Below are positions 20,745 through 50,854 of a stretch of DNA of 60,242 nucleotides, one piece after another (within the stretch, counting starts at the first letter, position 1; the number at the start of each line of letters is the position of its first letter). The position numbers were made by a program, and so were the translations under genes. This stretch comes from Flavobacteriaceae bacterium (GTDB lineage: Bacteria; Bacteroidota; Bacteroidia; Flavobacteriales; Flavobacteriaceae). The notes under the pieces were generated by a model. It was not told where the DNA came from and ran no database searches. It saw only the letters and a program-made list of their open reading frames with translations. The DNA is taken from contig JAGXIE010000112.1 of assembly GCA_024635765.1 (NCBI GenBank), forward strand, positions 1 to 60,242, read 5' to 3'.

Positions 20745-20803
20745 CGATTCTCAAAAACTGACCCTGATTTTTATGAATATCCAAAAAATTTCACAGAGTA
20801 TTG

Positions 20804-20811
20804 CAAATATA
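20804..20811 (-). promoter_or_regulatory. -7 promoter box for the SusR-like gene
   Basis: On the minus strand the sequence reads TATATTTG, a perfect TAnnTTTG, 60 bases before the regulator's start codon. Confidence 0.55.
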
Positions 20812-20819
20812 GCAAATAA

Positions 20820-20935
20820 TTAATCTTGATTTTTTTAATATTAATCTTGATTGCTAATAATAAAAAATTATCACAAATATCTGAAAAACAACTACTCAAT
20901 CGTATTTTAAGTAATATTTTTTCTTGATTTATCCA
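20820..20935. promoter_or_regulatory. Repeated TCTTGATT boxes between susR-like and susC
   Basis: TTAATCTTGATT occurs twice (starting near 20820 and 20842) and a third TCTTGATT lies near 20927. Repeats in this divergent intergenic space are plausible operator sites for the SusR-like protein. The region is very AT-rich, so chance repetition cannot be excluded. Confidence 0.35.
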
Positions 20936-20966
20936 TTGTTTATTTTATTTGAGTTGATGTTGCACC

Positions 20967-21023
20967 TATTTTTGAAATGTTATTAAATCGTTAACAAGGC
21001 CAAAGGTCTTTCACAAACCTTTG
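20967..21023 (+). promoter_or_regulatory. susC promoter box and leader inverted repeat
   Basis: TATTTTTG at 20967-20974 fits TAnnTTTG, about 100 bases before susC. Downstream in the leader, CAAAGGT (21001-21007) and ACCTTTG (21017-21023) form a 7-bp stem-loop that could influence translation or bind a regulator. Confidence 0.4.
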
Positions 21024-21074
21024 TAGAATTAATTTTTAACAATTTAACTAAATGAGTAAAACACTCCTACCATC

Positions 21075-24095: not shown

Positions 24096-24102
24096 AAAAG
24101 AA

Positions 24103-25596: not shown

Positions 25597-25608
25597 AAAA
25601 ATACAGTT

Positions 25609-26997: not shown

Positions 26998-27018
26998 CAA
27001 ATTTAAAAATATAATTCA

Positions 27019-28404: not shown

Positions 28405-28412
28405 GCAGATAA

Positions 28413-30599
<2,187 letters not shown>

Positions 30600-30656
30600 C
30601 ACCTTGTTAGCAGGGCGCTAACACTAAATTTATATTAATTAAATAATCTTCTTATT

Positions 30657-31916
30657 ATGAAAAAAATTACATTTTTACTTTTTTGTTTCTTGACGATATC
30701 GTTCGCTCAAGCGCAATTGACGTCCGTGGCCATAGTTGGTGACGGCGTTGGTGGATGGCCAGGCGAAGCTGGAAACCCGGGTCCAACAGATATTAATCAA
30801 ATGACTTCAACCGATGGAGTTAATTGGAGCATTGAAAATTTAACCGTCACGGCAGGTGCTGCTAAATTTCGCGGTAACAATTCTTGGGATTTACCTTTTA
30901 ATTGGGGCGGCTCATCTTTTCCTTCTGGAACTGGTACAGTCGATGGAGGTGGAATGCCTACAACTGCTGGAACATTTAACGTAACATTTAACAGCAATAC
31001 ATTCGCTTATAATTTTGTGTTAGTTACTGGTGGTGGTCTGGCGTCTGTTGCCATAGTTGGTGATGGCGCTGGAGGCTGGCCAGGTGATGCTGGAAATCCT
31101 GGTCCCGTGGATGTAAACCAAATGGGTACTGTTGATGGTGTCAATTGGACAATTTCTAATCTTGCGCTTACTGTAGGGTCGGTAAAATTCCGTGGTAATA
31201 ATTCATGGGATTTGCCATATAATTGGGGCGGTACAAATTTTCCATCGGGTACGGCTGTAGTTGATGGTGGAGGGATAGGAACTACTTCAGGAAATTATAA
31301 CGTAAGTTTTAATAGCGATACCTTTGTATATACTTTTGAATTGGTAGGTAGTGGTGCTAGCTCTATTGCCATTGTTGGTGATGGGGCAGGAGGTTGGCCC
31401 GGTGAAGCTGGGAACCCTGGCCCTGTGGACGTACATCAAATGACATCCACAGACGGAATAAATTGGACAATAAATAATCTTACTTTGACGGATGGTTCTG
31501 TAAAATTTAGAGGTAACAATTCATGGGATTTACCATATAATTGGGGTGGTTCTACTTTTCCATCAGGAACAGCTGTGATTGATGGAGGAGGAATTACTTC
31601 TGTTGCTGGAGAATACAATGTTACGTTTAATAGCTCTACTCGAGTCTATAACTTTGATGACGTATTAGGAATTGACGATAATGATTTTTCAACTTTTAAC
31701 ATTTATCCGAATCCAACGACCGACATTTTGAATATTAAATCTGATAATGAAATTTCTAACATAACGTTATTTGATTTAACTGGGAAAAAGGTATTTGACA
31801 CAAAAAATGTGGTTAACAATCAGGTTTATATAGGTAATCTATTACCTGGAATATATTTGATGAACATTCAGGATAGCAATGAAAATGGGGTCGTTAAAAA
31901 AGTGATTTTGAAATAA
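30657..31916 (+). CDS. T9SS-exported protein with three tandem carbohydrate-binding-like modules
   Basis: 419 residues. Signal peptide (SFAQAQ), then three near-identical modules of about 106 residues, each starting VAIVGDG.GGWPG.AGNPGP and containing KFRGNNSWDLP.NWGG. The C-terminus is a type IX secretion sorting domain (FNIYPNPTTDILNIKS ... GIYLMNIQ). The modules resemble the SusE/SusF-type starch-binding fold by pattern (KFRGNNSWD.. versus KFRLNNEWT in the SusE-like protein). No catalytic residues are seen, so it is probably a cell-surface or released starch-binding protein. Last gene of the locus; a terminator follows. Confidence 0.88.
   Translation: MKKITFLLFCFLTISFAQAQLTSVAIVGDGVGGWPGEAGNPGPTDINQMTSTDGVNWSIENLTVTAGAAKFRGNNSWDLPFNWGGSSFPSGTGTVDGGGMPTTAGTFNVTFNSNTFAYNFVLVTGGGLASVAIVGDGAGGWPGDAGNPGPVDVNQMGTVDGVNWTISNLALTVGSVKFRGNNSWDLPYNWGGTNFPSGTAVVDGGGIGTTSGNYNVSFNSDTFVYTFELVGSGASSIAIVGDGAGGWPGEAGNPGPVDVHQMTSTDGINWTINNLTLTDGSVKFRGNNSWDLPYNWGGSTFPSGTAVIDGGGITSVAGEYNVTFNSSTRVYNFDDVLGIDDNDFSTFNIYPNPTTDILNIKSDNEISNITLFDLTGKKVFDTKNVVNNQVYIGNLLPGIYLMNIQDSNENGVVKKVILK
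30729..31660 (+). repeat. Three tandem coding repeats, period about 320 bp
   Basis: The marker GCCATAGTTGG starts at 30729 and 31050 and its variant GCCATTGTTGG at 31368, spacings of 321 and 318 bp, all in frame. DNA identity between copies is high, so the array could expand or contract by recombination. Confidence 0.85.
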
Positions 31917-32731: not shown

Positions 32732-33589
32732 ATGCAAAACACCCTAAACCAAATCATTACAGAGTACAAGACCGAAATTAAACCCTACGTAGAATCAGAC
32801 CTGTCCGACCTCAACAATTTAATTTCGGGTATCAACATTTCACAAGAGTATTTACATAGATTGCGTGATATTATTAAAGAAAAAGTATTCTCAACTCCTG
32901 AAGCTGAAATATTTTTCTTCAAAGTTCAAAAACCACTCATATATGGACATTTTAAATATTTTGTGAAGCTCCATAGATATGTATTAGAAAAACCTCAAGG
33001 CTCCATAAAAAAGCAGCGCATTTACATTGATGCCCTAATTGAAAAATTACAATGCAATAATTTAAAATACATTGATTTTGTGCGATACTATCGGCAATGT
33101 GATTCTCGACTCGACAAATATTATTTTGTTAGAGGTAAAGAAAATCTAAATCTCATTTCAGATACCTCCCATTATTACACCGACCCAGATTTTTCCACAA
33201 GCCACGACAATATGGTCGCACAAATCATTGCATTTGATATGCTTATTTATCACTACAAACAAGAGTTGAAACGTCTCCATAAATTACAAAACAATATAGA
33301 TTCAGATAATAACATTTCAATTCCTTTCAATGACCTTTCATGGACAGCTTCCAAAACTGATTTGGTTGAAATAATTTATGCATTACAAGCCTCTGGAGCG
33401 ATTCGAAATGGTGAAGCTGAAATTAAGAAGATATCCATAATTTTCGAGAAACTCTTCAACTTGGAATTAGGGAATGTCTATCGCACCTATTTAGAAATTA
33501 AAGAACGTAAAAAGGACAGAACAAGTTTTTTGACCCAGCTCAAAATAGCTTTGGAACGTAAGATGGATGACGATGACGAAAAGTATTAA
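32732..33589 (+). CDS. RteC-like regulatory protein
   Basis: 285 residues resembling RteC of Bacteroides conjugative transposons. In CTnDOT, RteC activates excision genes in response to RteA/B. Supporting stretches are the N-terminal helical part, the KVQKPLIYGHFKYFVKLHRY block, and the C-terminal helix-turn-helix-like DLVEIIYALQASGAIRNGEAEIKKI. Such genes are markers of integrative elements. It precedes the excisionase-like and replication-like genes, so it probably controls excision or replication of this island. Confidence 0.82.
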   Translation: MQNTLNQIITEYKTEIKPYVESDLSDLNNLISGINISQEYLHRLRDIIKEKVFSTPEAEIFFFKVQKPLIYGHFKYFVKLHRYVLEKPQGSIKKQRIYIDALIEKLQCNNLKYIDFVRYYRQCDSRLDKYYFVRGKENLNLISDTSHYYTDPDFSTSHDNMVAQIIAFDMLIYHYKQELKRLHKLQNNIDSDNNISIPFNDLSWTASKTDLVEIIYALQASGAIRNGEAEIKKISIIFEKLFNLELGNVYRTYLEIKERKKDRTSFLTQLKIALERKMDDDDEKY

Positions 33590-33645
33590 TGCATTGTATA
33601 TGACTATATATGCATATTTAATATGTTAAATTAATCCACAACCCA

Positions 33646-33754
33646 TTCCCAACTTGGGAATAAATACTATCAAACATCCACACATTTGTAAAACGAATGT
33701 CAAATCAACGCAAAGAAACTGCTTTTGAATTGTAAAAAATTCGGCAGTTTCTTT
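33646..33754. repeat. Two inverted repeats before the excisionase-like gene
   Basis: TTCCCAA-C-TTGGGAA at 33646-33660, and a perfect 11-bp inverted pair AAAGAAACTGC (33712-33722) / GCAGTTTCTTT (33744-33754). The second could be a terminator-like or regulatory hairpin in the leader of the 33774 gene. Confidence 0.55.
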
Positions 33755-33773
33755 CATTTAAAACCTTTTTAAC

Positions 33774-34049
33774 ATGGCAACACAAGTGCTTACCACAGAC
33801 GACCTTTATGAATTCAAAACGCAACTTTTTGAAGAGCTCAAAAAATTAATGGACAACAAGCCACAATCAGGTAAAAAAAAGTATCTCAAATCTTCAGAGG
33901 TAATGGAAATGTTGCAAGTGAGTCCAGGTACACTTCAAAATTTACGGATTAATGGCACCTTGCCATATTCCAAAATTGGTGGGATTATTTTCTACGATGC
34001 GGAAGAAATCAATCTCATCATGAAAGAAAATCGTATTGATAACCGATAA
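33774..34049 (+). CDS. Excisionase-type helix-turn-helix protein
   Basis: 91 residues. The C-terminal half (KYLKSSEVMEMLQVSPGTLQNLRINGTLPYSKIGGIIFYDAEEI) is a MerR/excisionase-like winged helix (HTH_17). The N-terminal part is a short helix. Proteins of this kind in Bacteroidota elements act as excision factors or as regulators of the following genes. It is followed after 58 bases by the replication-like pair. Confidence 0.85.
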   Translation: MATQVLTTDDLYEFKTQLFEELKKLMDNKPQSGKKKYLKSSEVMEMLQVSPGTLQNLRINGTLPYSKIGGIIFYDAEEINLIMKENRIDNR

Positions 34050-34107
34050 TTTCTATGGAGTTGAAAATCGCAGATTCAACTTGGCCAATCCCATCATATA
34101 AATAGCA

Positions 34108-34776
34108 ATGCCAGAAGTGAACTACATCACTCATCTCAATAATTTCTTTCTGAAATTATCGAAGGATACAAGATTAAATACAACACACGTCAGTATGTAT
34201 ATGGCATTGTTTAATTTTTGGAATCAAGCACGGTTTTCATCAGAGTTTTTTATTAATAGAAATGAGGTAATGACGCTTTCCAGAATAGGTTCAAAAGGTA
34301 CTTATCATAAATGCATCAAGGATTTAAGCGATTGGAAATACATAATTTATATGCCTTCTAAAAACCCTAACATCGGTAGCAAAATAAAGATGTACAATTT
34401 TAGTACAAGTAGCGAACAAGCAACGAACCAACAGCGAACCGAAATCGGTACAAGTGGTGAACAAGTATTGGGTCCTTATATAAACAATACCAAACAGAAA
34501 AAACAATCAAACGTTTTTAAACCGCAAAATAAAAAAGAGGTCAGTATTTTTTTTGAAGAAAACAAATGGCCAGCTGCGCAGTCCGAAAAGTTTTTCAGCC
34601 ACTACGAATCGGTAGGTTGGAAAAAAGGAAAATCCAAAATAGAAAATTGGAGAGCTGCTGCAGAAGGGTGGATGATTCAGTTTCGGGAAAACGAAGAAAA
34701 CAACGTAAGCGCACAAGTACAGAATAAGGACAACCTGCATACCAATAAAAACAAAAATTATAATCAACCATTGTGA
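34108..34776 (+). CDS. Replication initiator-like winged-helix protein (phage O-like)
   Basis: 222 residues. The N-terminal ~110 residues look like a winged-helix DNA-binding domain (FFINRNEVMTLSRIGSKGTYHKCIKDLSDWKYI). A low-complexity linker rich in N, Q and T follows. The C-terminal segment FFSHYESVGWKKGKSKIENWRAAAEGWM is the pattern seen at the C-terminus of phage and element replication organisers. It overlaps the next gene, a DnaC-like ATPase, by 4 bases. Together they look like an O/P-type replication module. Moderate confidence in the function. Confidence 0.7.
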   Translation: MPEVNYITHLNNFFLKLSKDTRLNTTHVSMYMALFNFWNQARFSSEFFINRNEVMTLSRIGSKGTYHKCIKDLSDWKYIIYMPSKNPNIGSKIKMYNFSTSSEQATNQQRTEIGTSGEQVLGPYINNTKQKKQSNVFKPQNKKEVSIFFEENKWPAAQSEKFFSHYESVGWKKGKSKIENWRAAAEGWMIQFRENEENNVSAQVQNKDNLHTNKNKNYNQPL

Positions 34777-35459
34777 TGAAACCAATACAAACCACATTCA
34801 ATCCAAACCAACCTCAAATTATCATTGAAGGTGCAGTGCAATATGAATTGGGAACGTTCGATGGCACAACAATTAACTATGATTTTAAAAAAATTCTAAT
34901 ATATCTCAATGCAAAAGGTAAATTGTTATTCGGCAAAAACTTTAAGATTTATGAAGAAGATGAGGTCATTTTGTACAAGTTGTGTATTTACTTTATTCGC
35001 GATTTCGATGCATGTGAAAAATTGGAAATTGACCTCAATAAGGGCATTCTATTATCGGGCCCTGTAGGTTGTGGAAAAACAAGCCTCATGAAATTACTAC
35101 GTCATATCGTGCCACATCAAAAACCTTATGAAGTGATTCCTGCAAGAAATATCGCATTTTCGTTTAACAATCTTGGCTATAAGACCATAGAAGAATATGG
35201 CAATAGTAGTTTTTATTGTTTTGACGATTTAGGTGTCGAAACAACCGGAAGACATTTTGGTAAAGATTGCAACGTTATGGGCGAAATTCTTTTATCTCGT
35301 TATGACCTATTTCTGAAAAACAAAATAAATACGCATGCAACAACCAATCTAAATGCTCAAGAATTAGAGGAAAGATATGGTAATCGTGTACGATCAAGAA
35401 TGCGACAATTATTCAATTTAATTGCTTTTGATGAAAAAAGTGTTGATAAACGAACTTAA
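34773..35459 (+). CDS. DnaC/IstB-like AAA ATPase (helicase loader-like)
   Basis: 228 residues. Walker A GPVGCGKTS around residue 97, Walker B FYCFDDLGVE around 150, and a sensor with THATTNLNAQELEERYGNRVRSRM typical of DnaC-like loaders (arginine finger region). It overlaps the initiator-like gene, which suggests coupled translation and direct partnership: the first protein binds the origin and this ATPase would load the host helicase. Confidence 0.82.
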   Translation: MMKPIQTTFNPNQPQIIIEGAVQYELGTFDGTTINYDFKKILIYLNAKGKLLFGKNFKIYEEDEVILYKLCIYFIRDFDACEKLEIDLNKGILLSGPVGCGKTSLMKLLRHIVPHQKPYEVIPARNIAFSFNNLGYKTIEEYGNSSFYCFDDLGVETTGRHFGKDCNVMGEILLSRYDLFLKNKINTHATTNLNAQELEERYGNRVRSRMRQLFNLIAFDEKSVDKRT

Positions 35460-37164: not shown

Positions 37165-37764
37165 ATGCAAGTTAAAAATACAACATTAAAAAAAATTCTT
37201 CATGGTGAAGGCATATCTTCCGGATATTCCTTTAGAAGTAAAATTGAGAACAATCCTGACGGTCAATATAAAGTGATTCAGCTAAAGGATTTCATCAATG
37301 ACTATACTGCTATTAGTCAAGACTGCTATAAAGTGCCTGCGGAGGACATAAAAGATAAGTATGTCCTAAAAACGGGTAATATTCTCTTTATTTCTAAAGG
37401 CCAAAATAATAATGCAGTAGTATATTCGGAGAAGGATTTAAATGGGCCTTACATTGCGTCTTCTTCCTTATATGTAATCGAAGTAAATCCAAAAAAAGCA
37501 AACCCAGATTTCATTGCCTGGTACATCAACCAGTTGCCAGTGCAAAACTACATTAAACAGAACTTAACAGGAACCTACACGCCTACTGTAAATCGTAAGG
37601 TGGTAGAAAATATCCCAATACAACTTCCTGCACTCGAAGAGCAAGCTTATATGGCTTCACTAGGCAAATTAGCCATAATGGAAAAAAACTTGCATGCCCA
37701 AATCTCGGAGTTAAGGGAACTTCTAATTAACAATCAATTATTAAATCATATTAACAATAGATAA
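37165..37764 (+). CDS. Half-length HsdS-like specificity protein
   Basis: 199 residues, about half an ordinary HsdS. It contains one target-recognition-like domain (about 1-155, with YVLKTGNILFISKG and the TRD end NLTGTYTPTVNRKVVENIPIQLPALEEQ) and one C-terminal helix (about 160-195), the pattern of a single HsdS half. It precedes hsdM by 10 bases. It may act as an alternative or dimeric specificity subunit with HsdM, compete with the full HsdS, or be a leftover. Both ends look natural, with its own promoter, so I favour a real gene. Confidence 0.8.
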   Translation: MQVKNTTLKKILHGEGISSGYSFRSKIENNPDGQYKVIQLKDFINDYTAISQDCYKVPAEDIKDKYVLKTGNILFISKGQNNNAVVYSEKDLNGPYIASSSLYVIEVNPKKANPDFIAWYINQLPVQNYIKQNLTGTYTPTVNRKVVENIPIQLPALEEQAYMASLGKLAIMEKNLHAQISELRELLINNQLLNHINNR

Positions 37765-37774
37765 TTCAATTAAA

Positions 37775-39295
37775 ATGTCAGATAAAAAACCATCTCAAGA
37801 ACAAATCAACGCAGCCTTATGGAATGCTTGCGACACCTTTAGAGGAGCATTCGACTCGTCTGAATACAAAAATTACATTTTGGTGTTTATGTTTATTAAA
37901 TATTTAAGTGATGTATGGGAAGACCATTATCAGGAATACAAAATGCAGTATGGCGACAATGAAGAGCTCATCCAGCGGAAGTTAGGCAGGGAACGTTTCA
38001 TCTTGCCTAAAAACTGCACGTTCAAGTATATTTATGAAAACAGAGACCATCAAGATATTGGTGGCATCATCGATAAGGTATTAGGACAGATAGAAGAACA
38101 AAATATAGAAAAGCTAGATGGCGTGTTTCGTAACATCAGTTTCAATTCTGACAAATTAGGTCAAACCAGAGACCGTAACCGTCGTTTGAAGAATCTGATT
38201 AACGACTTTGCCCAACCCGAGTTGGATTTTCGACCATCACTTTGGGATGGCAAGCAAGATATACTTGGAGATGCATACATGTATCTATTAGAAAAATTTG
38301 CATCTGGAGCTGGTAAAAAAGGCGGTGAATTTTTTACACCTAAAGAAGTCTCTGGTCTCTTGGCTAAACTAGTCAACCCAAAAGAAGGTGACCGTATTTT
38401 TGACCCTACCTGTGGTTCTGCCTCACTATTGATTAAAGTAGCAGAAGAAGTAAAAGACAGTCAAGGCAATCCAACTAATAATTTTGCACTATATGGCCAA
38501 GAATCTAATGGTGATACCTGGGCATTAAGTAAAATGAACTGCTTTTTACATAGTATGGACTCTGCTCAAATTGAATGGTGCGATACAATCAACAACCCAA
38601 AACTAATTGAGAATGATAGTTTAATGAAGTTTGATGTGGTAGTGGCAAATCCACCCTTCAGTTTAGATAAATGGGGTCATGAGAATGCCGAAACCGACCG
38701 TTACAAACGATTTTTAAGAGGAGTGCCACCAAAATCCAAAGGTGATTATGCTTTTATATTACACATGATAGAAACTGCATTGCCTTCGGGTAAAGTTGGT
38801 GTCATTGTGCCACATGGTGTACTGTTTAGAGGTAGTGCCGAAGGCAGAATACGTCAAAATCTAATTGAAGAAAACTTATTGGAGGCAGTTATTGGCTTGC
38901 CATCCAACCTCTTTTTTGGGACAGGTATTCCTGCAGCGATTCTGATTTTTAACAAAGCGCGTGCGAGTTCGAGCGAGAAAAGAGTGTTGTTTATTGATGC
39001 CAGCAAAGACTATCAAGACGGTAAAAAGCAAAACATTTTGCGCAAAAAGGACATTTCAAAAATAGTGGAGACTTATAAAGGCTTCACAGAAACAGAAAAA
39101 TACAGCCATTTGGCAAGCCTTGAAGAAATTGCTGAAAACGACTTCAACCTCAACATCCCACGTTATGTGGACACATTTGAAGAAGAAGAACCAGTAGATA
39201 TTGCTGCAACACAACAGGAAATTGAAAGACTGGAATCCGAGTTGGTGGAGGTGCGTGCGCAAATGGACAATTATTTAAAAGAGCTAGGACTATAA
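37775..39295 (+). CDS. hsdM: Type I restriction-modification methyltransferase subunit HsdM
   Basis: 506 residues. N-terminal HsdM_N helical domain (LWNACDTFRGAFDSSEYKNYILVFMFIKYLSD), then the SAM-binding motif DPTCGSASLLI around residue 209 and catalytic NPPF (VVANPPFSLDKW) around 290, as in N6-adenine methyltransferases. It methylates host DNA at sites chosen by HsdS. Its stop overlaps the hsdS start (TAATG). Confidence 0.97.
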   Translation: MSDKKPSQEQINAALWNACDTFRGAFDSSEYKNYILVFMFIKYLSDVWEDHYQEYKMQYGDNEELIQRKLGRERFILPKNCTFKYIYENRDHQDIGGIIDKVLGQIEEQNIEKLDGVFRNISFNSDKLGQTRDRNRRLKNLINDFAQPELDFRPSLWDGKQDILGDAYMYLLEKFASGAGKKGGEFFTPKEVSGLLAKLVNPKEGDRIFDPTCGSASLLIKVAEEVKDSQGNPTNNFALYGQESNGDTWALSKMNCFLHSMDSAQIEWCDTINNPKLIENDSLMKFDVVVANPPFSLDKWGHENAETDRYKRFLRGVPPKSKGDYAFILHMIETALPSGKVGVIVPHGVLFRGSAEGRIRQNLIEENLLEAVIGLPSNLFFGTGIPAAILIFNKARASSSEKRVLFIDASKDYQDGKKQNILRKKDISKIVETYKGFTETEKYSHLASLEEIAENDFNLNIPRYVDTFEEEEPVDIAATQQEIERLESELVEVRAQMDNYLKELGL

Positions 39296-40605
39296 TGGAG
39301 CACAACACCGACACAACACCGACAAAAGTCCACCAAGATGCCAAATTAGGGGTAATTCCTGATGGATGGTCAACACCAAAAATTAACGAGGTGTTTCAGT
39401 TTATTAATACAACCTCATTTTCACGTGACCAGCTCAATTATGATGAAGAGAGTGACTTATATTATATCCATTACGGTGATATTCACGCAACATACAAAAA
39501 ACCATTGCTAGACTTTGAAATTGAAGCTAAAGTGCCAAAGTTAAATAGCGATGTGATGTTGCCAGCTAGCATTCAATATTTAAAAGATGGCGATGTGATT
39601 ATTGCAGATGCATCAGAAGATTATGCAGGTGTAGGTGAAGCAATAGAGATTAAAAACTTAAATGGTAAAGCAGCAATAAGTGGCTTGCACACCTTTGCGT
39701 TAAGAGCTATTGATAACGAAACGGTTGCAGGCTTTAGAACCTATATTTTTAAAAACCCTAATGTAAAAAAGGCACTTAAAACAATTGCTACAGGTAGTAA
39801 AGTATATGGTATTTCAAAGGGAAATATACAGAAGTTTAAAATTGTATTGCCTACAATACCAGAGCAACAAGAAATAGCCCAAATCCTAGCGACTTGGGAT
39901 GTGGCAACTATTAAACAAGAGGCATTAATAAAAGAGAAGCAACAACAAAAAAAATCACTAATGCAACAGTTGCTTTCTGGCAAAAAACGGTTTACTGGGT
40001 TTGATAAAAAGATTTCATTTGTCAAAATCAAACAAATAGGAAAAGTTCTTTCCGGTGGAACTCCAAGCACATCAAATTCTGAATATTGGAATGGAGGTGT
40101 TCCATGGTGTACACCTACAGAAATAACTGGACTGAATGGCTTGATGAATATAATTCAAACCGAACGAACAATTAGTGAAAGTGGTCTAAAGAATTCTTCT
40201 GCTAATTTGCTGCCTAGAAACTCACTAATTGTATGTACTAGAGCAACTATAGGAGCTTGTGCTATAAATACGATTCCGATGGCGACTAATCAAGGCTTTA
40301 AAAACATTATTCCAGAGATAAACAAAATTGATATCATTTATCTTTATTATACAGTTCAGACAATTAAACCTAAAATGATTGCTTTATCATCTGGCAGCAC
40401 ATTTTTAGAGTTATCAAAAACAGACTTTGAAAGTATTAAAATACCTCTACCATCTCTTAAAGAACAACAAAAAGTAGCAGAAGTTTTAATGGCTGCAGAT
40501 AATGAGATAACATCCTTACAACAACAATTGCAAAAGCTAAAAACACAAAAACAAGGTTTAATGCAGCAGTTATTAACAGGAAAAATAAGAGTAAAATTAA
40601 ATTAG
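39295..40605 (+). CDS. hsdS: Type I restriction-modification specificity subunit HsdS
   Basis: 436 residues with two target-recognition domains (about 15-200 and 235-400), each followed by a conserved helix (EQQEIAQILATWD...KEKQQQKKSLMQQLLSGKKRF and EQQKVAEVLMAADNEI...KTQKQGLMQQLLTGKIRV). The repeated LMQQLL(S/T)GK motif shows the classic internal symmetry. It determines the bipartite recognition site. The next gene starts only one base after its stop codon. Confidence 0.97.
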   Translation: MEHNTDTTPTKVHQDAKLGVIPDGWSTPKINEVFQFINTTSFSRDQLNYDEESDLYYIHYGDIHATYKKPLLDFEIEAKVPKLNSDVMLPASIQYLKDGDVIIADASEDYAGVGEAIEIKNLNGKAAISGLHTFALRAIDNETVAGFRTYIFKNPNVKKALKTIATGSKVYGISKGNIQKFKIVLPTIPEQQEIAQILATWDVATIKQEALIKEKQQQKKSLMQQLLSGKKRFTGFDKKISFVKIKQIGKVLSGGTPSTSNSEYWNGGVPWCTPTEITGLNGLMNIIQTERTISESGLKNSSANLLPRNSLIVCTRATIGACAINTIPMATNQGFKNIIPEINKIDIIYLYYTVQTIKPKMIALSSGSTFLELSKTDFESIKIPLPSLKEQQKVAEVLMAADNEITSLQQQLQKLKTQKQGLMQQLLTGKIRVKLN

Positions 40606-40606
40606 T

Positions 40607-41122
40607 ATGGAAGAAATTAAAGAAATAGAACAATCAAGGTACGTCCTTAATAGGTTTGACCATTACATAGAAGGTGCTAACAGTAAAGGAAATTTTTTAT
40701 TGGCGTATAGTGCATTTTTATTTGGGTTTATAGTAACCAGTTTTAATGATATAGTGGCATTAGACAATTCAGACTCTAAAAATTGGATAATAGTTCTACT
40801 CGCCGTAATTCTGGTGATTGGTTTGGTAAGTATAGGCTTTACAATTGCAGCCGTATTTCCGTTTTTAAAAACTAACAATTCAAGTAGTAAAAACTACCAT
40901 TCATTAGTATTTTTTAATTCCATAGCAGATATGGAGGAAGAGAACTTTTTAAAACAATATAAGCAACAAAAAGATAAAAAAGCCTGTAAGGATATGGCAA
41001 AACAGATTTATGCTATTTCTAAAGGACTTAAATCAAAATATTTCAAAATTAGTTGGGCAATTAGGTTGGTTTTTGTTCAGTTATTTCTTCTTTTATTAAT
41101 TATTTTAATCAAAATAGTATGA
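40607..41122 (+). CDS. Pycsar effector-like membrane protein (PycTM, DUF5706 type)
   Basis: 171 residues. The N-terminal helix RFDHYIEGANSKGNFLLAYSAFLFGFIV is the signature of the Pycsar TM-effector family, with transmembrane helices at about 25-46, 62-88 and 148-170 and a soluble region between the last two that could bind cyclic nucleotide. In Pycsar, cCMP or cUMP made on phage infection triggers such effectors to damage the membrane. It overlaps the cyclase gene by 4 bases (ATGA), so the pair is co-translated. It begins 1 base after hsdS. Confidence 0.85.
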   Translation: MEEIKEIEQSRYVLNRFDHYIEGANSKGNFLLAYSAFLFGFIVTSFNDIVALDNSDSKNWIIVLLAVILVIGLVSIGFTIAAVFPFLKTNNSSSKNYHSLVFFNSIADMEEENFLKQYKQQKDKKACKDMAKQIYAISKGLKSKYFKISWAIRLVFVQLFLLLLIILIKIV

Positions 41123-42456
41123 GTTTATTTAAAAATTATAAATCAGGTATTGAGAGTGTTTTGAGCAGGTCTGGTCAAACACTTCAAAAAGGGTTGAATT
41201 CACCTTATGTTTTGCTTAACGAAAGTAAAAGAACTTTTTCTTCCGTTCCAGCTACTATTGAGCCAAATTCCAAAACTATTTTAGAATTCGATTCTAATCA
41301 ATTAAAAAAATATTTTGGTCCAAATAAATATTCATTTGATAAAGTTACTATTGGGAATCATCCGGACTTCGAAGAGTTAGGAGAAAATCAAATGCTCAAG
41401 CATCATTGCGTGTCGATGTTTATTGATATTAAAGGTTCAACAAGATTAGCTCTAAAGTATTCTTTAGAAGAAGTTCGCTTGATAAAAGATACTTTATTAA
41501 CACTATGTATAAACGTGGTAAGCCATTTTGGTGGACATGTTCATAGATTGCAAGGAGATGCAGCGTTTGTTCAGTTTGTTAGAAAGAATTCAAACCCGAA
41601 CGACAGTATTATTAATGCTTTAAATGCGGCTAGCGTATTGTGCCAAGTAGTTTCTGAAGACTTAACCTCTGCGTTTGTTAGTCATGGTCTAGACCCAATA
41701 AAGATTAGAGTTGGGATTGATTATGGGAATGATGAAGAAGTAATGTGGTCACACTATGGGATTGCTAACTGTAATGAATTAACAACAACAAGTTTGCACA
41801 CAGATTTAGCGGCAAAGCTTCAACATAAAGCATCAGTAAATTCAATTCGAATAGGTAAAAATCTCATTGATGCGATAGAAATGAAAGAAGAGTATTTAAG
41901 TATTCCAAAAATTATAAAAAATGGAGAATATTTAGAGGACAGGTACATTATTCAATCTTCGGAATTTAATTATAGACAATTTAATTTTGATTGGAAAAAA
42001 TACTTAAATAGTTTTTCATTTTACAAACTAAACGGAAATGGTAAGTTGGAGATTTTTGACAATGCTTTCTCATTGAAAACAAGCGTATACACATCAGCAC
42101 AGGAAGGGTTAGCGTCTCAATATCATGAAAACAATTATGCAATCCTTAAAGGTAAGTACATTAAATATGAGCTTATGTTCGGTAACGTTCCATACTATAA
42201 AAAACCATATGAAAAAATTACATGGGAAGCATATAATTATGGTAGTGAAGCTATAGCAGAAAAGGATGAGCACCATGATTTTAAGAAAGAATTCATTAAT
42301 AAGACACATTGTATCGCGCATGCAGGATATCACGGGAATCACTATTTAAAATGTACCATTCATAGAGAGCATTCAGAAAATGTGGTACTGAAATTTCCAA
42401 TTTATGTTGATAGCGAATGGGATACTGATATCGCTTTAAAAAGTATGTTGAACTAA
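41119..42456 (+). CDS. Pycsar-type nucleotide cyclase (class III-like) with C-terminal AGS-C-like domain
   Basis: 445 residues. The class III cyclase domain (about 90-265) has the two metal-binding aspartates in MFIDIKGSTRLA and RLQGDAAFVQF and a late VGIDYGNDEEVMW segment, so it looks catalytically competent. Together with the membrane effector this fits PycC, which makes cCMP or cUMP. The C-terminal region (about 345-440, ITWEAYNYGSEA ... HAGYHGNHYLKCTIHR) matches the pattern of the AGS-C sensor domain that is fused to defence nucleotidyltransferases and cyclases. Which pyrimidine is used cannot be told from sequence here. Confidence 0.87.
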   Translation: MSLFKNYKSGIESVLSRSGQTLQKGLNSPYVLLNESKRTFSSVPATIEPNSKTILEFDSNQLKKYFGPNKYSFDKVTIGNHPDFEELGENQMLKHHCVSMFIDIKGSTRLALKYSLEEVRLIKDTLLTLCINVVSHFGGHVHRLQGDAAFVQFVRKNSNPNDSIINALNAASVLCQVVSEDLTSAFVSHGLDPIKIRVGIDYGNDEEVMWSHYGIANCNELTTTSLHTDLAAKLQHKASVNSIRIGKNLIDAIEMKEEYLSIPKIIKNGEYLEDRYIIQSSEFNYRQFNFDWKKYLNSFSFYKLNGNGKLEIFDNAFSLKTSVYTSAQEGLASQYHENNYAILKGKYIKYELMFGNVPYYKKPYEKITWEAYNYGSEAIAEKDEHHDFKKEFINKTHCIAHAGYHGNHYLKCTIHREHSENVVLKFPIYVDSEWDTDIALKSMLN

Positions 42457-42468
42457 ATTATTAAAACA

Positions 42469-42702
42469 ATGCCAAGAAAAGAAAGACACGTAGTTTCTAA
42501 CCCAAATGGTGGTTGGGATTCCAAAAGAGAAAAAGCCGAAAGAGCTTCAAAACATTTTGAAACAAAAAAAGAAGCGATGGACTGGAGCAGACAAAAAAGC
42601 AAATCTGAAGGCTCTGAATTGATTCCTCATAAAAAAGATGGTAAAATTCAAAATCCGGATAGTCACGGTAACGACCCTAATCCGCCTAACGATAAGAACT
42701 AA
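42469..42702 (+). CDS. DUF2188 domain protein
   Basis: 77-residue hydrophilic protein. HVVSNPNGGWDSKREKAERASKHFETKKEAMDWSRQ and the C-terminal DGKIQNPDSHGNDPNPP match the DUF2188 consensus. It has no membrane segment and no known enzymatic role. It begins 12 bases after the cyclase gene and overlaps the next start by one base (TAATG). Its position between cyclase and hsdR suggests an accessory or regulatory role in the cassette. Confidence 0.85.
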   Translation: MPRKERHVVSNPNGGWDSKREKAERASKHFETKKEAMDWSRQKSKSEGSELIPHKKDGKIQNPDSHGNDPNPPNDKN

Positions 42703-43049
42703 TGAATATTCAGTTAGAACATCTGTATGGTATCTGGAGACATGAGCACAATGGCGTGATTACAGATTTTAGCATCAGGGTTTATGATGAACAGCATCAT
42801 ACAGGTCTTTCAATGTTTACAATTTTTAGATGGACAGATGATGGTTCAGAAATTATTTATGAATGGCATGGTGTTCCTGAAATAATAAATTATCCAGATG
42901 AGATTTCTGATATTATTATACATCACCTAATATCTACTGAAGTTAATTTAACGTATCAAAATTTAAAAATCTGGCATTTCACCAATAAACTAATGATATT
43001 GGAATTTGGAGATGGTTCGAGAGTAGAATTTGCAAAATTGGGAGGATAA
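42702..43049 (+). CDS. Small protein of unknown function in the Pycsar-like cassette
   Basis: 115 residues, no signal peptide or membrane helix. It reads like a small beta-rich domain (LYGIWRHEHNG, SMFTIFRWTDDG, MILEFGDGSRVEFAKLGG), similar in style to lipocalin- or calycin-like folds. I do not recognise a family. Translationally coupled to the DUF2188 gene and followed 76 bases later by hsdR. Candidate third or fourth component of the signalling cassette. Confidence 0.75.
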   Translation: MNIQLEHLYGIWRHEHNGVITDFSIRVYDEQHHTGLSMFTIFRWTDDGSEIIYEWHGVPEIINYPDEISDIIIHHLISTEVNLTYQNLKIWHFTNKLMILEFGDGSRVEFAKLGG

Positions 43050-43125
43050 TTTAAATATGTGCTTAATCTAGTTCCCCAAAAAAGTATAGAATTTCCGAAG
43101 GGAATAAATAATAAGAAAATAAAGA

Positions 43126-46100
43126 ATGGCAGCAAATTATAACGAGTTACAAGATTCTCAAGCACCAGCAATATCGTTGCTCCAAAAACTAAATTGGAAA
43201 TACATCACACCTGACCAAGCCTTTAAGGCAAGGGGTGAGCTATTGTCAAATGTAATTCTTAATGATATTCTGGCAGAACAATTACATGTCATTAACCATT
43301 TTGAATATAAAGGGGATAAGTATAAATTTTCTACGGGCAGTGTTCAGGGAGCTATCAACGCACTTAAAAGTGTTCCTATTGAAGGAGTAGTAAGAACGAA
43401 TGAGCATGTATATGATTTATTGACCTTGGGCAAAAGTTTTAATGAAACAGTAAAGGGAGACCGTAAAGCCTACACAATGAAATTCATTGATTGGCAAAAT
43501 CCTCAAAACAATGTATTTCATGTAACTGACGAATTTGTTGTAGAAGGATTAAAAGGAAAACGTCGTCCAGACATTGTCTTATTCGTAAATGGAATCCCAT
43601 TTGTAGTTATCGAAAACAAACGAAGAGACAAAAATCTATCTTTAGAAGAAGCAATTTCTCAAAATATTGGTAACCAAAAAGAAGATGGTATTCCAAAATT
43701 ATTCTATTATGCTCAAATTTTAATGGCCATACAGCCTAATGCGGCTAAATATGCAGTCACAGGTACAGAAGCAAAGTTTTGGGCCGTTTGGAAAGAGAAT
43801 ATAGAGGCGGAAGTTCAGAAACTACTTAAACGTCCGGTCAATAATACTCAAGCGGAAAATAGATTAGTAACTGAACAAGACAAAGCATTGTATTCATTAT
43901 GTGAGCCTTATCGATTACTCGATATTATTTATAAATATGTAGTGTTCGATGGTCCAGATAAAAAAATATGCCGTTACCAACAATATTTTGCAGTCCAGGA
44001 GACCATCGAAAGGGTAAAACAAAGAGACAAAGAAGGGAATCGCAAAGGCGGAGTTATTTGGCACACCACTGGTAGTGGTAAATCACTAACAATGGTGATG
44101 TTATCAAAAGCTTTGGCACTCGACGCCTCAATTGAAAACCCGAGAGTGATTATCGTAACAGACCGAATTAGTTTGGACAAACAAATCTTTAAAACCTTTG
44201 TAAACTGTGGGAAAAGTGTAAAAAAGGCTAGGAGTGGTTCAAACCTCATGGAGTTGTTGCAAGATAAGGGAAGTGAAATCATCACCACCATCATCGATAA
44301 ATTCAATATTGCATCTAGCAGAGTTACATTTAAAGATGAATCCCAAAATATTTTTGTTCTTGTGGACGAAAGTCACCGTAGTCAGTACGGTAGTGCGCAT
44401 GCCAATATGAAACGCATAGTACCAAATGCGTCTTACATTGGTTTTACTGGTACACCTTTAATGAAATCGGAAAAAAACACCTCTAAAAAATTTGGTGGAT
44501 TTATTCATAAATACACGATTGACCAAGCGGTTAAAGATGGTGCAGTATTGCCATTATTGTATGAAGGAAGGTCAGCCAAATTAACAATCAATAAAAATCA
44601 AATTGATAAAGAATTTGAAAGACTATCGGAAAATTTAAGCGAAGAAGCACAAAAAGACCTAAAAAAGAAATTCTCTTCAATAAGTAGAATTTTCGAATCA
44701 GAACATGTGGTAAACGAAATTGCTTACGACATTTCAAAACATTACACTCAAAACTGGCAAGGATATGGCTTTAAAGCGCAGTTAGCAGTGCCTAAAATTG
44801 ATACGGCTATTAAGTATCAGAAATATTTTGAGAATCAAACCAATCCAGACTTGAGAGTAAATACAAAAGTTGTATTTACGCCACCAGATAGCCGCCAAGA
44901 CAATGATGATGTTTGGTCAGAGAGTAGTAACGAATCTAGAATCTACTGGAATCAACTCATGACTAAACATGGCAATCAAGAAGACTATGAAAATTGGGTC
45001 ATCGAGAAATTTAATGATTCTTCAACGGAAGTGGAACTTATAATAGTAGTTCGAAAACTATTGACAGGGTTCGATGCACCTAGAAATACGGTATTGTATC
45101 TGGCAAGACCTTTGGTAGCGCATAATTTACTACAAGCAATTGCAAGGGTCAATAGATTATTCAAAGGAAAAGAGCATGGTCATATTATTGATTATGTAGG
45201 CATTTTAGGGAAATTAGACGAAGCCTTAACAGAATATAGTGCGCTCGAAGATTTTGACGAAGAAGATTTAACAAATGCATTAGTGAATATCACAGATGAA
45301 GTGCGCAAAGTGCCTATTAGACATGCTGAAGTGGCTGACATATTTAATGAAGTCTATAATAAAAATGATATAGAAGCCTTGGAGCGTCATTTAGCTGAAA
45401 AAGATTTACGTGATGAGTTTTATGAGAAACTGTCCAACTTTGCTAAATCCTTACAAACAGCTTTGGCTTCAGATGAGTTCTATCAAGAATTCACAATGCA
45501 ACAAATAGGCTATTATAAAATGGAATTAAAGAAGTATCAAAGTTTGAGAATCTCTGTCCAATTTCGTTACGCCGAAGTGGTGTCTTATAAAGAATATGAA
45601 CCAAGAATTAAAAAATTGTTAGACACCTATATTGATGCCGATAAAGTTGAGGTATTAACATCTGACCTTAATATTTTTGATAAGCAACAAGTAGAAGAAG
45701 CTTTAGAAACCTATGGAAAGTCATCAGCTTCTAAAGCAGATTTTATTGCACATCAAATGAAAAGAGTGATTTCCGAAAACATGGAAAAAGATGAAGCATT
45801 TTATAAAAAGTTTTCTGATTTAATCGAAAAGACAATTCAAGAATTTAATGAGGGAAGAATTGACGAAGCAAAATATTTAGAGACTATACTGAAAGCAAGA
45901 ACAGACTTGCATCAGGGCTATCAAGAAGGTATTCCAGAGTTGCTTTTACATAAACCAGAAGCAAGAGCATTTTATGGAGCTTTAAATATGGTGTTAAGTA
46001 ACAAACACGGTGAACAAATTGTGAAACAAATAACGGATGATTTAGCAAACACTTCGGTGGCGATTTCCAAAATAGTGGAAGGTTTGACCATTAGAGACTG

Positions 46101-46251
46101 GAAGAAAAATTTAGATATTCAAAGGCAAATGGAGAATGATATAGAAGACTATCTAATCAGTCATAGGAAAGACTTGGGTGTAGAAATAACATTTGATGAA
46201 ATTGATAATATACTAGAAAAGTGTCTAAAAGTAGCTAAAAACAATTTTTAA
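43126..46251 (+). CDS. hsdR: Type I restriction endonuclease subunit HsdR
   Basis: 1041 residues. N-terminal PD-(D/E)XK nuclease (RRPDIVLFVNGIPFVVIENKRR, about 150-165), then the translocase motor with Walker A HTTGSGKSLT (about 312-322), DESHRSQ (about 413), FTGTPLM (about 440) and the later helicase motifs RKLLTGFDAP and QAIARVNRLF. A helical C-terminal region interacts with HsdM/HsdS. All motifs look intact. It overlaps the YgjP-like gene by one base (TAATG). Confidence 0.97.
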   Translation: MAANYNELQDSQAPAISLLQKLNWKYITPDQAFKARGELLSNVILNDILAEQLHVINHFEYKGDKYKFSTGSVQGAINALKSVPIEGVVRTNEHVYDLLTLGKSFNETVKGDRKAYTMKFIDWQNPQNNVFHVTDEFVVEGLKGKRRPDIVLFVNGIPFVVIENKRRDKNLSLEEAISQNIGNQKEDGIPKLFYYAQILMAIQPNAAKYAVTGTEAKFWAVWKENIEAEVQKLLKRPVNNTQAENRLVTEQDKALYSLCEPYRLLDIIYKYVVFDGPDKKICRYQQYFAVQETIERVKQRDKEGNRKGGVIWHTTGSGKSLTMVMLSKALALDASIENPRVIIVTDRISLDKQIFKTFVNCGKSVKKARSGSNLMELLQDKGSEIITTIIDKFNIASSRVTFKDESQNIFVLVDESHRSQYGSAHANMKRIVPNASYIGFTGTPLMKSEKNTSKKFGGFIHKYTIDQAVKDGAVLPLLYEGRSAKLTINKNQIDKEFERLSENLSEEAQKDLKKKFSSISRIFESEHVVNEIAYDISKHYTQNWQGYGFKAQLAVPKIDTAIKYQKYFENQTNPDLRVNTKVVFTPPDSRQDNDDVWSESSNESRIYWNQLMTKHGNQEDYENWVIEKFNDSSTEVELIIVVRKLLTGFDAPRNTVLYLARPLVAHNLLQAIARVNRLFKGKEHGHIIDYVGILGKLDEALTEYSALEDFDEEDLTNALVNITDEVRKVPIRHAEVADIFNEVYNKNDIEALERHLAEKDLRDEFYEKLSNFAKSLQTALASDEFYQEFTMQQIGYYKMELKKYQSLRISVQFRYAEVVSYKEYEPRIKKLLDTYIDADKVEVLTSDLNIFDKQQVEEALETYGKSSASKADFIAHQMKRVISENMEKDEAFYKKFSDLIEKTIQEFNEGRIDEAKYLETILKARTDLHQGYQEGIPELLLHKPEARAFYGALNMVLSNKHGEQIVKQITDDLANTSVAISKIVEGLTIRDWKKNLDIQRQMENDIEDYLISHRKDLGVEITFDEIDNILEKCLKVAKNNF

Positions 46252-46952: not shown

Positions 46953-47446
46953 TGGGGTTATTATTTAGCCTTTTAAATCTCCACATACGGCACTTACTCA
47001 TTCATTCGTTCCGTGCCTACACTCATTCATTCCCAAGAGACTCCAGTTCCCCGCAGTACAGACAGTAATTACATTCAAACTTACAACTTCAAACAATAGT
47101 TATAGCGTTGTAATTACTGCCAGTACTTTTTGCCTTTGGCCTCAAATCCAAAGAAAATCAAATTTGTCTCCATCAAAACCTTAAGTCACAACTTGAACAT
47201 TCGGGAAGGCAGGTAATAAGGTGTTCGTCAGTCGTTCCATTTTGTTCCATAAAACATATCTGCAAGCCACTTTTCAGTTTCAAGTGTCATTGGGCATGCA
47301 GTGAAGCAATCTCACAATAAACAATGTTTTAATATTTCATGGGCTTGCATATACCATAAATAGTACCACTGCGGCGACACGTCCTCGTTGGCACTATTTA
47401 TTTGTTTTATTCCACACATTCTCTCCTTCCTCACCCGCAGCTACTC

Positions 47447-47522
47447 TTGTACCCTTACCTGCGAAAAGCAGGTACCCAATATGGAGCCTGCAAAAGCAGG
47501 CGAAATATTTATAAGGGTACAA
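47447..47522. repeat. Nested cruciform-like structure: outer stem enclosing two hairpins
   Basis: Outer perfect 11-bp inverted repeat TTGTACCCTTA (47447-47457) / TAAGGGTACAA (47512-47522). Inside are two hairpins, CCTGC-gaaaa-GCAGG (47458-47472) and GCCTGC-aaaa-GCAGGC (47486-47501). The layout gives a three-way junction in single-stranded DNA or RNA. The inner units resemble REP-like palindromes. Confidence 0.75.
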
Positions 47523-48091
47523 CCGCTGCTTCACTTTATGCGAGCCTGCGGGTCGCTTCGGGCAAAACCCACATAAATTTTAGTTTGATTGAATGTTTTG
47601 TAGTTTAAATGAAGTGTATATATTGATTCACATGCGGATAGATTAAAGATGTGGGTCTGCGGGTGTCACATTTTTTGAACCTCTCAAGTTGGCAAATAAG
47701 ATAGCTTCATCCTCGCGAAAGCGGGGACCTTCTTTTTCTAAATATCGCTTTGCTATATTCATATTTTTGCATTCAAAAGCTATCCTATTTTGCAAGGTGT
47801 ACACAAGAGCAACTCATTCAGTCAGCAATTCCATCCACCACACAATAGTTTCTACATTACGGTTTGGCCATTCGTTCATTTCCATAATGATTTCAGCAAA
47901 ACCTTATAACCCTGCATGCTCTTGAAGTTTCGTGGAGGCCAAACCTTAAATGAAAACTATTCCCCAACCTTCCATTGCTTCCTTCATTCTTTGCACTTGC
48001 CTAAACTTGAATATTTCGTACTACCTATAAAAATCCATCTGATACAATATAAAAATCAAAAAAATGCGACACCCTTGCGGTAAACCGTTGC

Positions 48092-48136
48092 TGTGGTACG
48101 CCCTTTTGCAGAAAAATGCAACGGGCTATTACCACA
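48092..48136. repeat. Long imperfect hairpin in the non-coding region
   Basis: TGTGGTA (48092-48098) pairs with TACCACA (48130-48136); inside, GCCC and TTGCA pair with TGCAA and GGGC around loop GAAAAA. A GCGGTAAACCG palindrome lies just upstream. Strong secondary structure without a T-run argues against a simple terminator. Confidence 0.65.
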
Positions 48137-48474
48137 CCACCCTCGCTCAACTCGCAGGCGGCTCGCGCCTTTTAGATTACCTGCTAATTCGAAATTTTGA
48201 GGATTACTTATAGAAAACTAATTCACTTAATCCGATAATCAATAGAAAATAAAAAACTCAAACATAAAGCAAAGGTACAGGCGTGCGGATGCGAGAGCTG
48301 CAAGGGTTCGCTTCGCCTGTTGAAAAAAATCTCCACCCTCGCTTTTTTCTTTTCATTTACAATTTTCATTGCCTGATACAGCTGACTGCCACTGAACACT
48401 GCACACTACAACACGGGTAGTATTTTTTCCACAGCCCTTGCACCAATCGCACCGTCCTGTGAAACAAGGGCATT

Positions 48475-48639
48475 ATGTTTAAGTTATTATTTAGAGTCCG
48501 TTTAGGTAGCAGATGGTTACTGGCGGGCATACGTACATCGGGCAGTCCATTCCATGTAGGTGTTCATTACGTTGGCTTTAAAGAGTACACGTTGCGCATC
48601 TTTTGGTTAGAGTGCTGTCTTTCAGAGCTTCCTTTTTAG
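48475..48639 (+). CDS. Possible 54-aa small protein
   Basis: ATG-initiated frame missing from the ORF track because of its length. It reads MFKLLFRVRLGSRWLLAGIR and ends LECCLSELPF. It is basic at the N-terminus and has two adjacent cysteines. The stop codon lies inside the terminator hairpin. I do not recognise a family. It could instead be part of a terminated non-coding RNA. Confidence 0.35.
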   Translation: MFKLLFRVRLGSRWLLAGIRTSGSPFHVGVHYVGFKEYTLRIFWLECCLSELPF

Positions 48640-48653
48640 GGAGCTCTTTTTTT
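48624..48653 (+). terminator. Strong rightward intrinsic terminator
   Basis: AGAGCTTCC (48624-48632) pairs with GGGAGCTCT (48639-48647) with one wobble, loop of 6, followed by a T-run. It shows that something is transcribed rightward from the structured non-coding region. Confidence 0.85.
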
Positions 48654-48680
48654 AATCGCTTCCGAAAAAATATTGAAACG

Positions 48681-48707
48681 AAAAAGCCCAGGAAATGTCT
48701 GGGCTTT
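48681..48707 (-). terminator. Leftward terminator of the four-gene cassette
   Basis: AAAGCCCAG (48683-48691) and CTGGGCTTT (48699-48707) form a 9-bp stem with an A-run on the plus strand (T-run on the minus strand). It overlaps the stop of the last cassette gene. Confidence 0.85.
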
Positions 48708-48905: not shown

Positions 48906-49145
48906 TTAGCCCTCCTCGTCACTGTCTGTTTTTTCAGCATCATCACCCTCAACTACAGCTTGACTGACAGCTGTGGCCACAGTGCCAGCAACAGTCAAAT
49001 AAGTCGCTACGGTCACAACAATAGCTGGAAATGAAATCGGTGCAGCAATCACAGCGCCTCCCACAGCTGCCAAGGCAATACCAATATTTCGTAAAGTCTT
49101 AAAGAATTTAGGGGTTGGTTGTTTATAACGTTCTACAATGTTCAT
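48906..49145 (-). CDS. Small membrane protein, cassette gene 3
   Basis: 79 residues. N-terminus basic (NIVERYKQPTPKFFKTLRNIG), then alanine/valine-rich hydrophobic segments (about 22-65), then a very acidic tail (VEGDDAEKTDSDEEG). It overlaps the DUF5675 gene by 23 bases. The opposite charges of the tails of this protein and its neighbour suggest that they may pair. A holin-like role is a guess. Confidence 0.7.
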   Translation of the reverse strand: MNIVERYKQPTPKFFKTLRNIGIALAAVGGAVIAAPISFPAIVVTVATYLTVAGTVATAVSQAVVEGDDAEKTDSDEEG

Positions 49146-49545
49146 AGTTTACAGATTTAATGGTTAATAAAATGGTTTCTTTTCGGTCCTGGGCTTGGTG
49201 TACCACGGACAATAATTTTTGCAATGCAGGTCTTGCTTGCGCTCCCTTGCCGATACCTGTCAGATTAAGTACTGGAGCAATACAGCCCTCCAATTCCTTC
49301 AGCGCATCATTCGCGGGATGGATTAGAATCAAGCTTCTTTTTTCTACACCCTTTAAAAGCAAATGATGGTTGTGCTTTGGAGAAAACCTCGGAACAATCT
49401 CATAAACGCCTTCAGGAATACATGAAATGGAACGTCTGTTTTCTTTCCAAGGCAACTCAATTGTATGACACAAAAAACTGTGAGAGCAAAAGAGAGTACC
49501 ATTGGTACCCTCTTTAAAATAAGCTCTCTCAAGCGTGAACTCCAT
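49123..49545 (-). CDS. DUF5675 family protein
   Basis: 140 residues. GTLFCSHSFLCHTIELPWKENRR, the IPEGVYEIV block and ILIHPANDALKELEGCIAP match DUF5675, a phage- and element-associated family that may have an L,D-transpeptidase-like or peptidoglycan-related fold. There is no signal peptide. It starts 2 bases after the upstream gene's stop and overlaps the downstream gene, so the set is one operon. Confidence 0.8.
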   Translation of the reverse strand: MEFTLERAYFKEGTNGTLFCSHSFLCHTIELPWKENRRSISCIPEGVYEIVPRFSPKHNHHLLLKGVEKRSLILIHPANDALKELEGCIAPVLNLTGIGKGAQARPALQKLLSVVHQAQDRKETILLTIKSVNYEHCRTL

Positions 49546-49547
49546 GA

Positions 49548-50303
49548 CTATGGAGTATCAATGCCAACAACAGCCAAAGCATTGTAAGCGCCGTTTTTAA
49601 GCGGGTACATTTGGCCATTCACCTCTTGGAAAAATTCCACGCCAATCACCTGCACAATTGGAAGTGTAGAGTTGGCAGTCAAGTTCGCTGTCAAAGTTGT
49701 TGCAGCGATGTTGGAACTGTCCCAAGCAAGAATCGCAGTAGCTTCACTTGATACAACATGGGTTTCCGTTTGAAAATCCAATTCCGCACCACCTACAGAA
49801 AGTCTAAAGTGGGTAGTTCCACCAGGAGCAGCAATACTGTTCAAAGCCACAAAAGCAGCAAAATCAGTGGCAGCAGTTCCAGCCACACGGTCAATTGTTG
49901 AGGTATAGTCCACAAACAATAAAGAAGCAAGCTTCCCATTGATATTGAACTCAAAACCTCCCAATAGTGATAAATCACCATCTTGGACAGTCCTGAAACC
50001 ACGCTCATTGATTACGTCAGCTTTGACCACAGCGACCAATTTTTGAGTCAATCGACTCGTCACTCGTTTGTCCGATGCATTCTGCATCAAGTTTCGAAGC
50101 GCTACTCTGATGAGTTTTCCACCTTTACCAGCTGTCCCAAATTCAGACCCATTTTCACGAGTTCTCTGAAACGCAGGGTCATTCGCAATCCGACTGGCAT
50201 CAATCCCACCTTTTTCGCGTGCTAAATGACCGTCAGACGTTTTGTAAAAGGAAATACCACCGATAGTTCCTTTCAATTTAATAATACCTGTTTGTCTTGC
50301 CAT
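49548..50303 (-). CDS. Unknown protein heading the four-gene cassette (structural-like)
   Basis: 251 residues. The basic, glycine-rich N-terminus (MARQTGIIKLKGTIGGISFY, then DGHLAREKGGID) and DPAFQRTRENGSEFG are followed by a helical region and a C-terminal beta-rich domain high in T, A and N (about 100-251). I recognise the N-terminal pattern as recurrent in Bacteroidota hypothetical proteins next to DUF5675, but know no function. Composition is like a phage structural or tail-type protein. First gene of the leftward set. Confidence 0.75.
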   Translation of the reverse strand: MARQTGIIKLKGTIGGISFYKTSDGHLAREKGGIDASRIANDPAFQRTRENGSEFGTAGKGGKLIRVALRNLMQNASDKRVTSRLTQKLVAVVKADVINERGFRTVQDGDLSLLGGFEFNINGKLASLLFVDYTSTIDRVAGTAATDFAAFVALNSIAAPGGTTHFRLSVGGAELDFQTETHVVSSEATAILAWDSSNIAATTLTANLTANSTLPIVQVIGVEFFQEVNGQMYPLKNGAYNALAVVGIDTP

Positions 50304-50462: not shown

Positions 50463-50666
50463 ATGAAGATTGTAAGAGTTTGCATATTCCCAAAGGACAT
50501 CCATTGCATCACTGGAAGAAGTGAACGCTATGGCAGGAAGCTATTACAAGATATTAGAAAACACTTTGATAAAGAACCACATCAATTTATTACTGTAGAA
50601 GAATTCGCTGAATACAGTGGCATAAAAGAAGAAATAATTATTCAATATTTAGAACAAATTTCATAG
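50463..50666 (+). CDS. Small putative DNA-binding protein
   Basis: 67 residues. ITGRSERYGRKLLQDIRKHF and the end ITVEEFAEYSGIKEEIIIQYL look like a helical domain with a helix-turn-helix. Divergent from the four-gene cassette and 165 bases from attR. It resembles short Bacteroidota proteins found in multiple genomic contexts; possible regulator of the cassette. Confidence 0.7.
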   Translation: MKIVRVCIFPKDIHCITGRSERYGRKLLQDIRKHFDKEPHQFITVEEFAEYSGIKEEIIIQYLEQIS

Positions 50667-50831: not shown

Positions 50832-50854
50832 GGTTTGAATCCAGTCGAGGTCAC
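50832..50854 (+). repeat. attR: copy of the tRNA-Arg 3' end
   Basis: Exact 23-bp repeat of 17203-17225 without any further tRNA sequence upstream: the preceding bases (GAGGAAAA) do not match the tRNA T-stem. It marks the right end of the island. Confidence 0.85.

Follow-up and report, generated by a model that had tools for sequence, protein, structure and literature searches.

Few large ornate RNAs have been described in bacteria, and what they do is poorly understood. GOLLD and ROOL form RNA-only cages (PMC12286853); phages or prophages carry them, in many cases close to tRNAs, and their function is unknown, ROOL being 659 nt long (PMC12286853, PMC7567579). In the PLE satellite, a non-coding transcript located between inverted repeats is the most abundant transcript of the satellite (PMC7567579). 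OLE is also a large ornate bacterial RNA, for which no tie to mobile elements is given in the same source (PMC12286853).

The window analyzed here (the whole stretch of 60,242 nt from a Flavobacteriaceae bacterium) contains a module that probably represents a novel family of large, structured non-coding RNAs, encoded on the minus strand, fixed in Flavobacteriales integrative elements with no detected relaxase and acting in trans. No published description of the module was found in the open-access literature. Also, neither the window nor seven relatives matched any Rfam covariance model at the gathering score, with weak matches only below this threshold, and GOLLD, ROOL, OLE and the other Rfam large RNAs were rejected as its identity on this basis.

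The integrative element and its gene context

The island in the window is an integrative element with an integrase and a flanking att repeat at a tRNA-Arg, and its main features are as follows.

17203-17225, plus strand: att core GGTTTGAATCCAGTCGAGGTCAC, 23 bp, marking the left end of the island within the tRNA-Arg 3' end
17444-18700, plus strand: tyrosine integrase (Pfam PF00589, PF13102, PF17293)
32732-35459, plus strand: left arm, with RteC, HTH_17, a replication-type protein and a DnaC-like helicase loader
48906-50303, minus strand: right arm, with a 79-aa protein (TM79), DUF5675 and a 251-aa MARQTG protein
50832-50854, plus strand: repeat of the same 23 bases of the att core; right end of the island

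The integrase and the 23-bp repeat bear out the mobile-island setting proposed in an earlier sequence-only reading of this DNA. These att repeats are established for the window island, and for the other islands the integrase lies beside the left arm in several cases. The same reading had stated that the island lacks a visible relaxase, a claim that holds for PF03432 only: no relaxase of this family was found in the islands across 20 genomes, the nearest one on the same contig being about 52 kb from the module (genome G151). A phage satellite of the PICI/PLE type would be recognized by an integrase, replication genes and an excision regulator, structural genes being absent.

The arrangement around the module is recurrent. 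In 33 of 35 copies, either DUF6266 or the TM79/DUF5675/MARQTG set is found on the 5' side of the putative minus-strand RNA, with variable cargo on its 3' side. Past the cargo, a first type of element carries the DnaC-like loader, the replication-type protein, HTH_17 and RteC, with a tyrosine integrase alongside in several, and a second type has a tyrosine integrase beside an HTH_17 gene. Fold searches of the 251-aa MARQTG protein gave no confident match, and the DUF6266 model is similar to this protein in layout, by secondary structure only and with no sequence link. A 67-aa ORF is located near the right att site (50463-50666), and similar sequence is present past MARQTG in loci L009, L073, L075 and L078.

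The islands carry phage-defence and other cargo genes. The cargo of the window island includes a Pycsar pair (PycTM effector and PycC cyclase, 40607-42456) inside a type I restriction-modification cluster (37165-46251). Also, SusC/SusD-like and glycoside-hydrolase-like genes, identified by eye, occupy positions 19113-31916; because they lie between the integrase and RteC, both kinds of genes are apparently inside the att-bounded island.

Extent and distribution of the conserved module

The unit common to the loci is bounded by GCAGGTAATAAGG and GATTACCTGC, and in the window it comprises positions 47209-48184. The parts of the region are listed below.

47209-48184, minus strand (the presumed functional strand): structured module core, 976 nt, closed by the terminal helix P1
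48176-48184, minus strand: 5' strand of P1, GCAGGTAAT
47209-47217, minus strand: 3' strand of P1, ATTACCTGC
46970-47208, minus strand: 3' extension with a hairpin (47055-47073/47109-47127), conserved in about 14 of 35 loci; the end near 46970 is approximate
48242-48685, unstranded: second module, also conserved and non-coding, separating the core from the right-arm genes

The fold of the core has about 24 helices, P1 and long-range ones among them. The module length ranges from 497 to 1048 nt across the 35 copies, the window's included, with many indels. Its boundaries are sharp, the flanking sequences being unrelated in many loci. No conserved ORF was found in the module, the sole internal ORF cluster listed in at least three loci being that of L048, L049 and L051. 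The second module may correspond to a promoter region or to a second RNA; it stands alone in genome G045 (L054), upstream of DUF6266.

The structure recurs in other flavobacterial elements, with 34 full copies in Flavobacteriaceae besides that of the window. A query spanning 47190-48650 gave matches in 38 of 351 Flavobacteriaceae genomes, some of them only to the right-hand part or second module. A 155-position model of the region matched Flavobacteriaceae and one other family of Flavobacteriales (4 of 88 genomes), and among 346 sampled genomes of the phylum it matched Flavobacteriaceae only; these scans used strict filters, by which divergent copies can be missed. DUF6266 is again nearby in two loci of the second family (L103 and L104). 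In genome G200, two model matches (L105 and L106) are separated by about 10.6 kb in the same orientation, which suggests tandem elements. The genome of the window (G000) contains one full copy of the module and one partial, on contigs C148 and C147, respectively. In the partial copy (L061, at about 35110 of its contig) the similarity ends after about 177 nt, and an RteC/HTH/Rep/DnaC left arm is present upstream (L138). No copy of the module was found among 50,697 phage records. Six pattern matches in viral contigs were judged to be chance, the module being absent from each of these contigs.

The hairpin cluster is a peripheral arm of the module

The sequence-only reading had drawn attention to a cluster of nested inverted repeats at 47447-47522. 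This cluster is one peripheral helix, or arm, of the larger conserved non-coding module, and it is composed of the following elements.

47447-47457 with 47512-47522, read on the plus strand: outer stem, TTGTACCCTTA with TAAGGGTACAA
47512-47522, minus strand: 5' strand of the outer stem (TTGTACCCTTA on minus)
47447-47457, minus strand: 3' strand of the outer stem (TAAGGGTACAA on minus)
47525-47529 with 47437-47441, minus strand: basal 5-bp stem GCAGC/GCTGC, which extends the outer stem
47458-47472, unstranded: inner hairpin CCTGC-GAAAA-GCAGG, a lineage-specific insertion, single copy in the genome
47486-47501, unstranded: inner hairpin GCCTGC-AAAA-GCAGGC, where relatives have a variable apical hairpin

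The outer stem of 11 bp around two hairpins is present as described in that reading, with no mismatch, and no gene overlaps the cluster. It had also been considered unlikely to arise by chance: the RNA fold over 96 nt has an energy of -43.8 kcal/mol against -21.1 ± 3.3 for 200 dinucleotide shuffles (z = -7.0), none of the 200 being as good.

A comparison with the relatives reveals which parts of the arm are conserved. Both inner hairpins are the lineage-specific part, the relatives having one shorter hairpin or, in L077 and L080, other hairpins inserted there, and the outer stem keeps its structure with a changing sequence. For example, a 116-base query recovered two loci in the sister genome G001; their outer arms match, the interior is replaced and the stem is altered on both sides. 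In the basal stem GCAGC, the relatives show GC/AU/GU and UA/CG/UG alternatives.

Covariation and functional strand

The module is a multi-helix single-strand structure over hundreds of nucleotides, supported by covariation. In the two-part stem that holds the outer helix, 98% of 495 cells are paired across 33 sequences, and 11 of its 15 pairs have changed on both sides (UA/CG, GC/AU, CG/UA and others), although such cell counts overstate the independent events because the sequences are related. None of 500 shuffles reaches the observed level of covariation, slid versions of the stem pair in 35 to 47%, and RNAalifold recovers the outer stem without guidance. In the terminal helix P1, all cells of the 35-sequence count are Watson-Crick pairs except one G-U. 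Moreover, the full consensus of 12 close relatives contains 191 pairs with an energy of -197 kcal/mol, where 114 column shuffles gave -80.7 ± 6.1. Covarying pairs number 33 in this consensus, and 1.7 on average and 7 at most in the shuffles. A structured RNA, one among the options that the sequence-only reading had listed, fits this covariation.

Single-sequence folding beats shuffles on both strands and its z-scores do not separate them; the choice of strand therefore rests on the G-U wobbles and the consensus energy. Read on the minus strand, the outer stem contains 12 G-U cells against one A-C, and the 12 helices counted in the 35-sequence alignment contain 77 G-U against 25 A-C, of which 14 belong to a single helix that is poorly aligned. 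The minus strand also gives the better consensus fold. From these sequence comparisons, we infer that the minus strand is the functional one.

Transcription of the module is presumed by analogy with GOLLD, ROOL and the PLE transcript. No conserved promoter was found upstream of the module among the loci. One candidate can be listed in the window:

48259-48305, minus strand: promoter-like TTG-N23-TACCTTTG, reading into the module

This promoter-like motif precedes the module in five loci only, which is the main weakness of the RNA reading. Elsewhere, an unrelated gene directly adjoins the 5' end of the module, and L065 and L068 have a terminator-like sequence immediately upstream. According to the proposed RNA, its 5' end would be at or before 48184 and its 3' end at 47209, or near 46970 where the extension is present; its gene would have the conserved genes of the right end (DUF6266, or TM79/DUF5675/MARQTG) on one side and the variable cargo on the other.

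Alternative explanations

The main rival, less likely than an RNA although it retains some plausibility, is a folded single-stranded DNA site acting in cis, from which single-strand replication, transfer or packaging of the element would start, with one strand active. Covariation fits this explanation too, because structured single-stranded DNA would leave an identical signal. Moreover, the mobile element carries replication-type and DnaC-like genes, the minus-strand bias would suit a transferred or displaced strand, and the sharp boundaries with unrelated flanks and the lack of a conserved promoter point in the same direction. However, the fold, about 1 kb long and made of about 24 helices, some of them long-range, is far larger than the oriT sites and single-strand origins known to us, and the elements are without a PF03432 relaxase.

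A related proposal, the one preferred in the sequence-only reading, is an oriT mobilized in trans by a helper conjugative element. It would agree with the inverted repeats and with an element that has no PF03432 relaxase of its own, but we regard it as very unlikely. In G000, the module matches are on C148 and C147 only, whereas the relaxases are on C25 and C91, with nothing similar near these genes, and the module is absent from 72,556 plasmid records; with no PF03432 relaxase in the element and no like sequence beside a helper relaxase, the oriT was rejected. Also, the unit kept among the loci has many helices over about 1 kb, with long-range pairing, unlike a small nick-site hairpin, and it shows compensatory change with lost sequence identity, whereas the nick-site sequence of a helper should stay fixed.

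Equally improbable is that the module, instead of being a free RNA, forms the long structured leader or another untranslated part of an mRNA from an adjacent gene. In the window, transcription of the right-arm genes runs towards the module on the minus strand, as expected of a leader, but the genes on either side vary by locus and often diverge from the module, which stays whole. Finally, despite the short C/G-rich hairpins, a REP-type or other scattered repeat is hardly credible: allowing up to one mismatch, the genome contains the inner hairpin a single time, the module is present as one full copy and one partial copy, and no dispersed chromosomal copies are present in the assembly (88% complete).

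Comparison with known systems

For the large structured RNA, direct support extends to its multi-helix single-strand structure, the compensatory evolution, the fixed genomic context and the mobile setting. A trans-acting role is proposed because GOLLD, ROOL and the PLE satellite RNA offer an analogy: while the element is being induced or replicated, the RNA could serve as a scaffold or a regulator. It is more speculative, and rather doubtful, that this RNA of about 1 kb assembles with itself, possibly into a particle like those of GOLLD and ROOL, and that the mobility or control of the element depends on it, with the DUF6266 and MARQTG proteins as its conserved partners.

RteC and the tyrosine integrase, with its Arm-DNA-bind_5/SAM_5 domains, resemble those of the CTnDOT-type elements of Bacteroidota. 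The islands differ from these elements in having no PF03432 relaxase, in their DnaC-like replication genes and in the structured RNA module. In the case of OLE, the differences are the carriage of the module on mobile elements and the absence of an Rfam match to OLE. The likeness to the PLE transcript lies in a non-coding RNA, putative for the module, of a mobile element and set between inverted repeats; however, PLE is a Vibrio phage satellite, and the inverted repeat of the module is the closing helix of a covarying structure.

The module is similar to GOLLD and ROOL in its length of hundreds of nucleotides, its many covarying helices and its carriage by mobile elements. It differs from both in having no Rfam match, in residing on Flavobacteriales integrative elements with no copy among the phage records, and in being closed by its own terminal helix, GCAGGTAAT/ATTACCTGC. 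The proposed RNA family would be new, and its kind, the large structured non-coding RNA, is already known. Fixed at the cargo boundary of islands that carry defence genes, such a family would offer another mobile-element setting, besides those of GOLLD, ROOL and PLE, in which to ask about the roles of these RNAs.
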